Origin: Bdellovibrio sp. CG22_combo_CG10-13_8_21_14_all_39_27 | Lineage (GTDB): Bacteria; Bdellovibrionota; Bacteriovoracia; Bacteriovoracales; Bacteriovoracaceae | Length of the DNA: 64,000 nucleotides | Assembly (NCBI GenBank): GCA_002786715.1 | Contig: PCTW01000084.1 | Coordinates: 293,663 to 357,662, forward strand | Direction: 5' to 3' | Part shown: positions 20,246 through 28,408 of the stretch, piece after piece | How positions within the stretch are numbered: position 1 is the first letter of the stretch | Layout: each line of letters starts with the position of its first letter | Program-made: the position numbers and the translations under genes | The notes under the pieces: model-generated | Databases searched by the model: none | Told to the model about the DNA's origin: nothing | What the model saw: the letters and a program-made list of their open reading frames with translations, nothing else

Positions 20246-20274
20246 AAGGGGTCCATTGGACCCCTTTTTTTTTT
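20246..20274 (+). terminator. Rho-independent terminator of rplM-rpsI
   Basis: A perfect 7-bp stem, GGGGTCC (20248-20254) with GGACCCC (20258-20264), a 3-base loop and a run of ten T residues. Confidence 0.93.
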
Positions 20275-20298: not shown

Positions 20299-22911
20299 AT
20301 GAAGAAAGATAAGTTTCTCGTCCTCAATAGTGTGAAAACTCACAACCTCAAGAATTTAAATCTTAAAATTCCTTTGAGAAAATTGGTCTTTGTAAAGGGG
20401 CCTTCGGGCTCAGGCAAATCATCGCTGGTCTTTCACACCATTTTTTCAGAATCAAAGCGTCGCTTTATAAATTCCCTGCCAACTGATATGAAGTTTTTTT
20501 GGGACATCCCTATCAAGGCTGATGTCGAAAGTATTTCACCGGTACTACCAGTTTGGGGTCTAATGCAGTTGAATCCAATTGTGGGGAGTCGTCCTAATGT
20601 TGGTGATTTACTGAGTCTAAGCGAACAACTACAAAGACTTTATCTATATAATGCTCGTGAGTTTTGTCCTAAACACCACGAATTATTGCTAAACCCATTT
20701 GAAGTTAACCTTTCATCAGTTTTCAATTTAGCAAAAGGAAATCTTCATTTTTTTATCGAGAAGGAAAATTACCAAAATTTTTCGGATGTTCTTCCATCAA
20801 GAGTTTATCATGAAGGTAAAATTCAATCTTTCCTTGAAGAGGCTCCACTGTGGGAGTTAGCTCGCTATAAAAAAAGCTCATTTGATAAAGCCTTTAAAGA
20901 AATTTCTCAGACATTGAAATCTCTAGCACATCTAAAGTCTTTGACGGCCATCGACAGTGAGGATCAAAAAAGAAAAATTCAAGTAGATGCTGGAAAATCA
21001 AAAAAATGTCCGAAGTGTGACTATAGTGGAGTTGATCATTGGGGTCCTGAGATTTTTAGCGCACTCAACGCCCATGGTGCCTGTCCCACTTGCAAAGGCC
21101 ATGGGTATACTCTGAATCTTTCCAAGGAAAAACTAGTAAGAGATCCAAGACTTTCACTTAAAGATGGGGCTTTTCATTTACTAAATTCTGCACATTTCTC
21201 ATCTTTTCAAAAAGTCTTTATTAAAGAGGCTCAAAGACTCAAATTCGATATAAGCAAAAAATTCGAAGATATTGAATCTAAGGAATTATGGAACTTTATG
21301 CTCAAGGGCAACAACAAGTTTGAAGGAGCAGAGGAGCTCTTCTCATATTTAGAGCCCTATCGCTATAAAAGATCGACTCGTATTTTTATTCGAAGCTATC
21401 AAGAAGAAGTTCTTTGTTTGAATTGTTCAGGAAGTCGATTGCATTCTCGATCAAAGGCACTTGGAATTTTTAAAAGAGATAGTAAGTTTCTTTCTTTTTC
21501 TGAAGTTTTAACAATGAACTTAAGTGAGATAGAGAAATCGATCAAAGACATAGTTCTCCCGAAAGAATTTAAACTATTACAGAAAAATATTTTAAATCTT
21601 TTGAAATGGACCAAGCAGATGGGGCTCGGTCATTTGGAAGTTCACCGCAAGGCAAAGTCGTTATCAACTAGTGAGTACCAAAGAATTCTTCTCGTTAAGT
21701 ATCTTTCATTTGAGGGTAGTGATTCACTTATTGTTTTAGATGAACCTTCAATAGGTTTGAGTGCAAAGGAACAGAATGTCTTAATCGATGGATTGAAAGC
21801 TTTAGTTGAACAGGGAAATTCATTGATTGTTGTTGATCACTCTGAGCATATGCAGTCTTCAGCAGATTATATAATAGAAATGGGTCCAGGTGCAGGTGTT
21901 CTTGGTGGCGAAGTTCTTTATCAAGGACCATTGAAGAAACAGAAGAGAACAAAGAGGAAGGTCTTAAAACAAGATACTCCTTCTTTTGGAGAGATCGCTG
22001 CCAAAAAAATCGAGATTTTTCCGGATCAATATAGAGATATATCTTTAAAGACAGAGAGAATACATCTTGTTACTGGAGATTCCGGAACTGGCAAAAGTTT
22101 ATTGTTTTTAAGAAATATTGCAAATACTTTGAAATTTGAATTAGAAGGAAGCTTAGAGTTTGATAATCGCCCTCTGAAAAATTTTAAAATCCCAAAGCAC
22201 TTAAAGCGCTGTTACATTTTTGATACAGTCATTTCTAGATATTCTTCACGTTCTACCGTTGGTTCCTATTTAGAACTTGCCCCTTATCTAAGAAAATATC
22301 TATCAAATCTTCCTCAATCAAAAATGTTAAATTTAAAAGATGGTCACTTCTCTTCTAATTCTGAGCTAGGGCAATGCTCACGATGTGAAGGTTCGGGAAC
22401 AGTTTCATTTGATATGCAATTTATGGAAGATATGCAATTAACTTGTGATGATTGTCAGGGGAAAAAACTTAAATCGTTTCTTGCAGAAATTTCAGATGGT
22501 CATTATAAAGTTTGGCAATATTACAAACTATCTGTTCAAGAAGTTTTCGAAATCATTCCTACCACACCAAAAGCAAAGCGCATCGTAGATTTTTTGGAAA
22601 AATTCAATTTATCCCATTTGGCTTTAGAGAGGCCGCTATCAAGCCTTTCAGGTGGAGAAGTTTTGAGAGTTAAGTTGATTTCGCAATTAATGAAAGGAGT
22701 ATTTGAAAATTCAATTCTCTTTTTTGAAAATATCTCATTTGGTCTATCTTCAATTGAACTTAACATCATTATTGATTTTATCTTGGAGCTTAAACAGCTT
22801 GGCAATACGATCGTCATTATAGATAACGACCCTTTGTTTGAACCCGTGGCAGACTCTCAGCATATTTTTACAAGAAATCAAGACCTTACAGTGTCATATT
22901 TCATCAAATAA
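20299..22911 (+). CDS. Divergent UvrA-family ABC ATPase with one degenerate composite site
   Basis: An 870-residue protein with the overall plan of excinuclease subunit UvrA but strongly diverged. NBD-I has an intact Walker A (GPSGSGKSS, residues 34-42), an altered signature (LSTSEYQR near 455 instead of LSGGE) and an intact Walker B (LIVLDEPS). NBD-II has an intact Walker A (GDSGTGKS near 593) and signature (LSGGE near 784), but its Walker B reads LFFENIS and its H-loop reads IIDNDP. Both zinc modules remain (CPKC...CPTC near 235-270; CSRC...CDDC near 690-720), and the UvrB-binding region is poorly conserved. It is therefore not expected to be the genome's main UvrA. It stands alone after the rpsI terminator. 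Confidence 0.82.
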   Translation: MKKDKFLVLNSVKTHNLKNLNLKIPLRKLVFVKGPSGSGKSSLVFHTIFSESKRRFINSLPTDMKFFWDIPIKADVESISPVLPVWGLMQLNPIVGSRPNVGDLLSLSEQLQRLYLYNAREFCPKHHELLLNPFEVNLSSVFNLAKGNLHFFIEKENYQNFSDVLPSRVYHEGKIQSFLEEAPLWELARYKKSSFDKAFKEISQTLKSLAHLKSLTAIDSEDQKRKIQVDAGKSKKCPKCDYSGVDHWGPEIFSALNAHGACPTCKGHGYTLNLSKEKLVRDPRLSLKDGAFHLLNSAHFSSFQKVFIKEAQRLKFDISKKFEDIESKELWNFMLKGNNKFEGAEELFSYLEPYRYKRSTRIFIRSYQEEVLCLNCSGSRLHSRSKALGIFKRDSKFLSFSEVLTMNLSEIEKSIKDIVLPKEFKLLQKNILNLLKWTKQMGLGHLEVHRKAKSLSTSEYQRILLVKYLSFEGSDSLIVLDEPSIGLSAKEQNVLIDGLKALVEQGNSLIVVDHSEHMQSSADYIIEMGPGAGVLGGEVLYQGPLKKQKRTKRKVLKQDTPSFGEIAAKKIEIFPDQYRDISLKTERIHLVTGDSGTGKSLLFLRNIANTLKFELEGSLEFDNRPLKNFKIPKHLKRCYIFDTVISRYSSRSTVGSYLELAPYLRKYLSNLPQSKMLNLKDGHFSSNSELGQCSRCEGSGTVSFDMQFMEDMQLTCDDCQGKKLKSFLAEISDGHYKVWQYYKLSVQEVFEIIPTTPKAKRIVDFLEKFNLSHLALERPLSSLSGGEVLRVKLISQLMKGVFENSILFFENISFGLSSIELNIIIDFILELKQLGNTIVIIDNDPLFEPVADSQHIFTRNQDLTVSYFIK

Positions 22912-22952: not shown

Positions 22953-23669
22953 ATGGAGGTAATGCTTGGACTAAAAAACTCTATATCGGCCCTCCTTCTT
23001 TGCTTATTCCTAATGAGTAAGGCTCAAGCAAGCATCATCCTTCCTCTTTCATTTGAAGACCAATTGAGAACCTCTGATGCCGTAGTACAAGGCGTGGTTC
23101 AAGGTCAAAACTTCAAGAGATTGGCCAATGGGGAAGTGACAACAGAAGTGGTCCTCAGGCTTTCGCAAACGGTTGGAATGGAATCTGAAATTATCGTCAA
23201 TCCATCACAATTTAAAGTTTTAGTACCTGGCGGTACATGGGGCGGAATCGTCCATCGTGTTGATGGTACCCCTGATTTTAAAAATGGCGAAGAAGTCGTG
23301 CTTTTCGTGAGCAGATTTAACTATGGAATAAAACTCTCTTCAATGGCCCTGTCTAAATATCAAGTGGTAAGAAAGAAGGATGACATTAGCTTGAAGTCTT
23401 ATCTTTACCCAGAAAATCCAAATATCGGCCATATTAAATTTTCGGAATTCAAGACGCTTGTCTCGACAGTTATGAATGGTGAACTCAAGCCAATTAGTAA
23501 TGAAAAAACTGTATGGAAAAGACCTCAGCAAGATGAGTTCATTGATGAAGAAAATACGGGCAGAGCTCCTGCCAGTATTTCACCTGCTAGTCACATTGAA
23601 ATGAGTTGGCTAATGATAATATTTGCTTTGCTGGGTAGTGGGTCATGGTACTTAGCAAAAAGAGATTAA
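22953..23669 (+). CDS. Secreted/anchored protein of unknown function, partner of the metalloprotease
   Basis: A 238-residue protein with a signal peptide (about residues 1-26, ending MSKAQA), a beta-rich middle region (about 30-170) and a C-terminal hydrophobic helix followed by a short basic tail (about 216-238, ending WYLAKRD). The last part resembles a C-terminal membrane anchor or sorting tail. The start at 22953 or the ATG at 22962 are both possible; GGAGG lies too close to the second. It overlaps the metalloprotease gene by 25 bases, so the two products are probably made together. No family is recognised. Confidence 0.65.
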   Translation: MEVMLGLKNSISALLLCLFLMSKAQASIILPLSFEDQLRTSDAVVQGVVQGQNFKRLANGEVTTEVVLRLSQTVGMESEIIVNPSQFKVLVPGGTWGGIVHRVDGTPDFKNGEEVVLFVSRFNYGIKLSSMALSKYQVVRKKDDISLKSYLYPENPNIGHIKFSEFKTLVSTVMNGELKPISNEKTVWKRPQQDEFIDEENTGRAPASISPASHIEMSWLMIIFALLGSGSWYLAKRD

Positions 23670-25933: not shown

Positions 25934-28408
25934 ATGTCAGACCATGACTCAGAATACACAGTTCAATTAAAGCCAGCGGTGGAGGAAATAAAAAACTTTC
26001 CACAAAATGTAGTGATTATTCCCATTATGAATTCGCCAATCTTTCCGGGAATGATTGCACCAATTATTTTAACAGAAGAAAAATTTACGCAAGAGCTGGA
26101 TGATCATCTTCTTAGGTCAGGCTACGTTGCCCTCAATCTAGTGAAGTCCGATCTCAAAGATGAGCAAGGTAAGTTCGTTCCTGAGGAAGATCTTGATTTA
26201 GAAAATAGAGAAATTCGTCCGAAAGATATTTATCGTGTTGGTGTTCTTTGCAAGGTTGTGAAGAAACTTAAGCTTCCGGATGGCTCAGTAAATATTCTTG
26301 TACATGGAGTTAAGCGCTATCGTGCATCTCAATTTGTTCAAGAGTTTCCGCTCATTGTTGGTAAGGTCGACGTTTTTGAAGATATTTTAGAAAGTGATGA
26401 AGAATTAGATGCCTATACTCGCTCAGTTATTAATCAAGTTAAGAAACTAAGCGAGATCAATCCTTACTTTAATGAAGAAATGAAGTTAGCGATTCTCAAT
26501 TCTCCTTCGCCTGGTGCACTTGCCGACTTAGTCGCTTTTGCCATTTCTCTCGATATACCCGAGGCTCAAGACTTTCTTGAAACACTTGTTGTTAAGAAAC
26601 GTTTTGCCAAGCTGCTCGTTTATCTTAAAAGAGAAAAAGATGTTGCCGATATTCAAAAGAAAATCTCTGATGAAGTAAATGATAAGGTTAACAAGTATCA
26701 ACGTGAATACTTCTTACGTGAGCAATTAAAAGTAATTCGTTCTGAGCTTGGAATGGATGAAGATGAAAAATCAAGAGATCTAAGAAAGATCACAGAAAAA
26801 ATTGAAAGTCTTGGAATGTCAGAAGTTGCTCTCAAGGCTGCAAAAGATGAACTCGAAAGATTAGAAGTTATCCCTGATAGTAGTCCAGAGTATAACGTTT
26901 CACGCACTTATTTGAATTGGCTCATTGATCTTCCTTGGGCGGTATCTACTGAAGATAAGATCGAAATGTCTCAATCTCGAAAAATACTTGATAAAGATCA
27001 TTTCGGCTTAGAGAAGCCAAAAGAAAGAATCTTGGAATTCTTGGCAGTGAGAAAACTAAAGCCAGAATATGACGGTACCATTTTATGTCTTGCCGGTCCT
27101 CCTGGTGTGGGAAAAACTTCTCTTGGTCACTCAATCGCGAAGGCTTTAGGACGAAACTTTTATCGCTTTAGTCTCGGTGGAATGAGAGATGAGGCTGAAA
27201 TCAAAGGACATCGCCGTACTTATGTAGGAGCAATGCCAGGAAGAATTATTCAAGCTCTTAAGCGAGTTGCTGTTAACAATCCAGTCATCATGCTTGATGA
27301 GATCGATAAGCTTGGAAATTCTTATCAAGGCGATCCAGCTTCAGCGCTTTTAGAAGTACTCGATCCAGAACAAAATAAAACTTTTATCGATAATTATTTG
27401 GATATTCCATTTGATTTATCAAAAGTGCTCTTCATTGCTACTGCCAATTATATTGGTAATATTCCAGAGCCATTGCTTGATAGAATGGAAGTCATTGAAC
27501 TTAGTGGTTACACCATTGAAGAGAAAGTATCCATCGCTAGGACGTGGGTTATTCCAAAGCAATTAAAAAAGCATGGATTGAAGAGCACAGACTTGTCATT
27601 ATCAAATACAATAATTAAAAAAATTATTTCTGATTATGCGCGTGAGCCAGGTGTGCGTATTATGGAACAATGTGTGGCCAAGATTTGCCGAAGCGCTGCC
27701 CTTGAGAAAGTTTCTAAAAAGAAGAAAACAAAATACACTCCTACGATGGCTTCGTTGGAATCTATTTTGGGAAGTCCACGTTATCAAACTGAATTGGCCC
27801 AAAAGCAACAGCGTCCAGGTATTGTCACAGGCTTAGCTTGGACCGCTTACGGCGGCGATATTCTCTTTATTGAGACATTACCTATCGCTGGAAAGGGTGG
27901 CTTTAAGCTCACTGGTCAGCTTGGTAATGTGATGAATGAATCAGCTAACATTGCTTACAGCTATGTTAAGAGCATTCTTCAAGACGAGAAAGTAACAAAG
28001 AAAACTGTTAGCAAAGTAAAAACAGTTGTGAAAAAAGAAGGTGAGGAAAATGATGATTACTTAGGTACTCATGAAATCCACCTTCATCTTCCAGCTGGTG
28101 CTACTCCGAAAGATGGTCCTAGTGCAGGTATCACAATGGCATTAGCTTTATACAGCTTGGCCAATGATAAAAAGATTAGGCCAGATCTTGCTATGACAGG
28201 TGAGCTTTCTTTAACAGGTCGAGTTTTGCCCGTCGGTGGAATTAAAGAAAAAGTACTAGCAGCTAAGCGCGCTGGTATTAAGCAAATAATTCTTCCTAAA
28301 GAAAATGAAAAAGACTTGAAGGAAGTTCCTGAAAGACACAGAAAGGGGATGAGATTTTTCCCCGTTGCTCATTTTGATGAAGTTTTAAAGATTGCTTTTA
28401 AGAAATAA
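25934..28408 (+). CDS. lon: ATP-dependent Lon protease (first copy)
   Basis: An 824-residue cytoplasmic AAA+ protease. Order: N-terminal substrate-binding LON domain (about 20-220), coiled coil, AAA+ module with Walker A (GPPGVGKTS) and the MLDEIDK Walker B, then the protease domain with the catalytic dyad Ser730 (KDGPSAG) and Lys773 (GGIKEKVLAA). A lysine/glutamate-rich insert (about residues 690-710) interrupts the start of the protease domain. This insert is absent from the second Lon of the window (62012-64000), so the two are diverged paralogues. It is preceded by a GCGGAG ribosome site and followed by a strong terminator. Confidence 0.96.
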   Translation: MSDHDSEYTVQLKPAVEEIKNFPQNVVIIPIMNSPIFPGMIAPIILTEEKFTQELDDHLLRSGYVALNLVKSDLKDEQGKFVPEEDLDLENREIRPKDIYRVGVLCKVVKKLKLPDGSVNILVHGVKRYRASQFVQEFPLIVGKVDVFEDILESDEELDAYTRSVINQVKKLSEINPYFNEEMKLAILNSPSPGALADLVAFAISLDIPEAQDFLETLVVKKRFAKLLVYLKREKDVADIQKKISDEVNDKVNKYQREYFLREQLKVIRSELGMDEDEKSRDLRKITEKIESLGMSEVALKAAKDELERLEVIPDSSPEYNVSRTYLNWLIDLPWAVSTEDKIEMSQSRKILDKDHFGLEKPKERILEFLAVRKLKPEYDGTILCLAGPPGVGKTSLGHSIAKALGRNFYRFSLGGMRDEAEIKGHRRTYVGAMPGRIIQALKRVAVNNPVIMLDEIDKLGNSYQGDPASALLEVLDPEQNKTFIDNYLDIPFDLSKVLFIATANYIGNIPEPLLDRMEVIELSGYTIEEKVSIARTWVIPKQLKKHGLKSTDLSLSNTIIKKIISDYAREPGVRIMEQCVAKICRSAALEKVSKKKKTKYTPTMASLESILGSPRYQTELAQKQQRPGIVTGLAWTAYGGDILFIETLPIAGKGGFKLTGQLGNVMNESANIAYSYVKSILQDEKVTKKTVSKVKTVVKKEGEENDDYLGTHEIHLHLPAGATPKDGPSAGITMALALYSLANDKKIRPDLAMTGELSLTGRVLPVGGIKEKVLAAKRAGIKQIILPKENEKDLKEVPERHRKGMRFFPVAHFDEVLKIAFKK

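Follow-up and report, generated by a model that had tools for sequence, protein, structure and literature searches.

A single gene in the 64,000-nucleotide stretch of DNA analysed here (the window) encodes a UvrA paralogue of 870 residues in which one composite ATP site keeps every catalytic element and the other has lost the residues for hydrolysis. By its sequence, the protein (20299..22911, + strand) is a one-site UvrA variant that is new and is conserved within a single bacterial family. We found no description of a one-site UvrA in open-access papers. What could such a protein do? From its sequence and by analogy with UvrA mutants, we think it probable on balance that it is a functional paralogue working with the proximal ATPase site only, and that it serves as an accessory, ATP-gated sensor of DNA distortion and not as a second UvrA for NER.

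Positions 20299-22911 form a single open frame with exact ends and no interruption. The first-pass annotation called this frame a UvrA paralogue, a call borne out by likeness to UvrA over its full length. The nearest solved proteins are UvrAs (E about 1e-88), and the fold prediction and structure comparison that the annotation had proposed give the UvrA fold from end to end. The AlphaFold model is of only moderate confidence (pLDDT 70.6, from an alignment of 13 rows); its best Foldseek matches are all UvrA (E 1e-54), and UvrA structures are also the best matches in the VIA structure comparison, with Z up to 31.4. With its two NBDs, zinc modules, insertion domain and UvrA fold, the protein belongs to the UvrA superfamily. 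It falls outside the UvrA equivalog families, scoring 384 bits against a cut-off of 729.8 for TIGR00630 (NCBIfam) and 377 bits against 1147 for PRK00349. A terminator-like hairpin followed by a T-run lies on the + strand at 20246-20266, ~32 bases 5' of the start codon. Because this hairpin sits between rpsI and the ORF, the latter probably forms its own transcription unit.

In UvrA, the proximal site is composed of ATP-binding domain I and signature II, and the distal site of ATP-binding domain II and signature I (PMC6486640; PMC7835731). The proximal elements of the window protein, all on the + strand, are canonical throughout: Walker A-I (GPSGSGKSS, 20398..20424), the Q-loop I residue Gln90 (20566..20568), Walker B-I (LIVLDEPSIGL, 21727..21759), the H-loop I residue His514 in DHSE (21838..21840) and signature II (SLSGGEVLR, 22642..22668). 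The distal elements, on the same strand, are largely broken. Signature I is degenerate (SLSTSEYQR, 21658..21684), Thr replaces Gln at the Q-loop II position (FDT versus IDQ, 22225..22227), Walker B-II (ILFFENISFGL, 22714..22746) has Glu for Asp and Asn for the catalytic Glu, and Asn replaces His at the H-loop II position (IIDND, 22825..22827); Walker A-II (GDSGTGKSL, 22075..22101) is intact here. Noncanonical residues are thus confined to one composite site, as in degenerate-site ABC proteins. The first-pass annotation listed LSTSE, LFFEN and IIDND as damaged motifs; it had read the residues correctly, as alignment to UvrA confirms, and its placing of them in one composite site matches the assignment in PMC6486640. 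The loss of the Q-loop II Gln and the short C-terminal tail are absent from it.

How widespread is this arrangement? Using a profile of 21 orthologues and counting each row better than 1e-145 as an orthologue, we detected the gene in ~98 of the 129 genomes that represent the window's family, within the order Bacteriovoracales, and in none outside this family in a draw of 291 genomes over the phylum. The next matches outside the family in that draw score about 590 bits, versus >1000 for full-length orthologues. A single-sequence search of the named genomes with the window protein gave no matches, and the profile search of the same genomes returned mainly class II UvrAs. We aligned 80 distinct orthologues and set them against three groups of controls: 20 second UvrAs of the phylum, seven canonical copies from the window's own family and a sample of 76 UvrAs, mainly of class II. 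The whole Walker A-I motif, including K40, is intact in 80/80 orthologues, as are Gln90, D481 and E482 of Walker B-I, His514 and the SGGE of signature II. At the distal site, no orthologue has an intact SGGE in signature I or the Gln of Q-loop II; the catalytic Glu position holds Asn in 73, Asp in six, Ser in one and Glu in none, the Walker B Asp is kept in seven, and the H-loop His in three. By sequence, then, the two hydrolysis-competent sites of class I UvrA are not found, the distal residues being lost in all 80. The controls retain both ATP sites, the single exception being an Asn at one signature-I glycine in one of the 20 second UvrAs. Because the split between an intact proximal and a broken distal site occurs in every orthologue and in none of the controls, it is a shared inherited trait and not a product of chance. 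The first-pass annotation held that its case would fall if no homologue carried the same pattern, a possibility that this distribution rules out.

Walker A-II is intact in 58 of the 80 orthologues and in the window protein, whose distal site may, for this reason, still bind ATP without hydrolysing it. Does distal ATP act as a glue that holds both NBDs together, as proposed for the degenerate sites of ABC exporters? The change from catalytic Glu to Asn, which also occurs in Pdr5 (PMC7756269), fits such a role, as does the intact Walker A-II itself. However, the accompanying losses of Gln, His and signature should weaken binding, and Walker A-II is eroded in 22 orthologues through about five independent changes (at least five on the tree), with the lysine itself gone in four. 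Distal ATP is therefore not essential family-wide, and we consider the glue explanation quite unlikely.

Closely related pairs give a whole-protein dN/dS of 0.02-0.06, and ATP-binding domain II by itself gives about 0.03-0.06. This purifying selection, together with conservation across the family, agrees with the earlier view that the pattern was selected and is not random decay. A decaying pseudogene could account for fast evolution along the stem of the orthologue clade and for an apparent frameshift inside the gene in two of the ~98 genomes, both of them drafts in which sequencing error or recent decay may be responsible. But the frames are open in nearly all genomes, the proximal site is intact in 80/80 orthologues, and dN/dS is low; these constraint data refute decay for the family, and we give it almost no credence. 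Frameshifts in close relatives, which the first-pass annotation named as evidence that would count against it, are confined to those two drafts.

The rest of the protein shows both loss and retention. A Pfam scan did not find the UvrB-interaction domain PF17760 in the window protein, a further departure from class I; the domain was found in the genome's own UvrA and in both intact second UvrAs scanned. For the 21 orthologues, PF17760 is not among the 25 commonest families listed, and one or two of the other orthologues could still match. The segment in place of this domain (20680..20994, + strand) has a similar length, is strongly diverged and gives a weak profile match: E 1e-8 with 11% identity to the equivalent segment of the intact second UvrAs, and a match to canonical UvrA only in the first 39 columns. 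It is also the most variable region, with a mean entropy of 2.5 bits versus 0.9-1.4 in ATP-binding domain I and 1.2-1.3 in signature II. The insertion (DNA-binding) domain, PF17755 (21115..21414, + strand; Pfam 24.8 bits), is found in 19 of 21 orthologues. Zinc module 3 with its hairpin (22375..22455, + strand) has a constant length and keeps all four Cys in 80/80, and the 12 zinc-ligand positions are kept in the orthologues, two of them with a few substitutions. The chain ends about 27 residues past H-loop II, versus about 51 in UvrA, and the tail is short in all orthologues. In sum, the protein has lost its C-terminal NBD-II tail and any recognisable sequence for docking UvrB, and has kept its zinc modules. 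Canonical UvrA of the window's family has, in 7/7 sequences, lost the zinc ligands that correspond to residues 126, 237 and 240 of the window protein, which the paralogue retains.

Where did the paralogue come from? Other families of the phylum possess a second, intact UvrA of about 930 residues (the KYK type) that forms its own group in trees; we know of no description of it. All orthologues of the window protein form one clade (support 100), which groups with this second UvrA (support 100) and apart from canonical and class II UvrAs. The clade's stem is long (1.8 changes per column), so where exactly it sits inside the joint group is uncertain, and long branches may have affected the result. 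According to these trees, the window protein is a descendant of the intact second UvrA found in other families. No intact KYK-type UvrA was seen among the extra copies read within the window's family, which group with canonical UvrA. Most simply, the residues for distal hydrolysis would have been lost once, in the ancestor of the orthologues, with Walker A-II eroding afterwards.

The gene lies in the order tamB - omp85 - rplM - rpsI - ORF - 238-aa protein - M10 peptidase - AMIN protein - lon. This order is common to nearly all of the 20 relatives read, with a few single-gene losses or contig cuts; in one of the 20, the ORF has no matching neighbours. The 238-aa protein (22953-23669) has no Pfam match and is kept beside the M10 peptidase, the AMIN-domain protein and lon across the family. 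The genome encodes three Lon-like proteases, one in the window (25934-28408) and two elsewhere (G000:C45:355770-358079 and G000:C8:19609-21924). We read the lon region in 17 genomes without the gene: most show the same neighbours with the gene cleanly absent between them, in a few the locus is cut or rearranged, and one has an unrelated insert. On the tree of neighbour genes, taken without a fixed root, presence and absence require six changes, and well-supported branches impose at least three of these. Repeated loss within the family is the likely history suggested by these sequences. About a quarter of the family lacks the gene, which is therefore dispensable.

These data also bear on whether the paralogue confers self-resistance or drug tolerance in the manner of DrrC and Ecm16. 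The idea draws on Ecm16, a class II UvrA known to act in self-resistance against a DNA intercalator (PMC10192343). Nonetheless, the tree sets the paralogue apart from class II, all 76 of the mainly class II sample keep both ATP sites, and the locus is a housekeeping one with no biosynthetic genes among the neighbours; such a role is very improbable. The first-pass annotation had proposed a functional one-site UvrA-like protein with a role perhaps in resistance or DNA surveillance. Its functional one-site protein is upheld by the site split, the constraint and the presence of a separate uvrA, but resistance sits poorly with vertical inheritance, a protein outside class II and a locus with no biosynthetic cluster nearby. 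DNA surveillance is the role that we infer from the sequence. A defence-system reading (PADLOC) was rejected, as the likeness to mad3/mad8 is only partial and mostly over the ABC regions.

A canonical uvrA elsewhere in the genome, for which the first-pass annotation advised looking, does exist: one intact copy on the same contig, ~115 kb from the ORF, with a 939-aa frame and 29% identity to the paralogue. A single uvrB lies elsewhere. Might the paralogue be a regulatory partner that forms heterodimers with canonical UvrA, or competes for its sites, and so tunes NER, using its own ATPase for no more than assembly or release? Signature II and zinc 3, among the most conserved regions, lie near the UvrA dimer interface and DNA groove (PMC6486640), and the co-occurrence of canonical uvrA and the absence of a second uvrB are also compatible with regulation. 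Yet the UvrB-docking sequence has diverged, and many genomes with a normal uvrA do without the gene. We hold such a regulatory role to be unlikely.

How, then, might a sensor of DNA distortion operate with the proximal site only? We propose that it would bind DNA as a dimer of the UvrA type, in which the distal NBD would be a scaffold. At the proximal site, ATP would be bound and hydrolysed, driving movement of signature domain II and its zinc-3 hairpin. In G. stearothermophilus UvrA with a dead distal Walker A, proximal ATPase rises >10-fold with native DNA and is low with lesion DNA (PMC6486640); by analogy, the paralogue would come off normal DNA as it cycles and stay longer on DNA that is distorted or damaged. 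The divergence of the UvrB-docking segment suggests that its partner is changed or new: it could then hand over to something other than UvrB, or to UvrB itself at a changed affinity. In E. coli UvrA, loss of the distal Walker A impairs lesion finding, and loss of distal hydrolysis gives tight DNA binding with UvrB loading intact (PMC7835731). The first of these mutants speaks against a protein that only senses lesions, unless changes elsewhere make up for the defect. The window protein resembles the hydrolysis-loss mutant, and orthologues with an eroded Walker A-II resemble the Walker A-loss mutant. A further step, which we put forward tentatively as a possibility with the odds against it, is a UvrB-independent DNA-surveillance pathway in Bacteriovoracales, in which the proximal-site-only UvrA would recognise distorted DNA and recruit another effector through its remodelled docking domain.

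Why does this family matter? What each of UvrA's two ATP sites does has long been a question, and point mutants have so far been the way to study it. Here evolution has carried out a natural experiment: about a hundred genomes encode a protein stripped of its distal site yet still under strong constraint. A purified member would reveal what the proximal site achieves alone, and also if the loss of distal-site function, of UvrB docking and of the C-tail went together because the three work together.

Among known systems, canonical class I UvrA (G. stearothermophilus 2r6f, M. tuberculosis 3zqj) shares with the paralogue two NBDs per chain, composite sites, three zinc modules, the insertion domain and the full-length fold; the paralogue differs in its dead distal site, unrecognisable UvrB-interaction domain, short C-tail and score of 384 versus 730 bits. 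The KYK-type second UvrA is its closest relative in the tree and has an insertion domain of the same length, but retains both ATP sites (one Asn in signature I, in 1/20), UvrA_inter in the two scanned and a longer C-tail. Class II UvrA (D. radiodurans UvrA2 2vf7, Ecm16 7sh1) likewise has the UvrA fold and no recognisable UvrB-binding sequence, but in the sample read both its sites are intact; it lacks the ~105-aa segment that the paralogue has at the place of the UvrB-binding domain and forms a separate clade, so the paralogue is not a class II protein. ABC exporters offer well-known cases of motifs lost selectively from a single composite site, and there the degenerate site matters for function (PMC7756269). 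The degenerate-site proteins Pdr5, TAP, CFTR and BmrCD have, like the paralogue, lost the catalytic Glu (Asn in Pdr5), the H-loop His and the partner signature in one site (PMC7756269); those are transporters, whereas the paralogue is a soluble UvrA-type protein with an independent origin.
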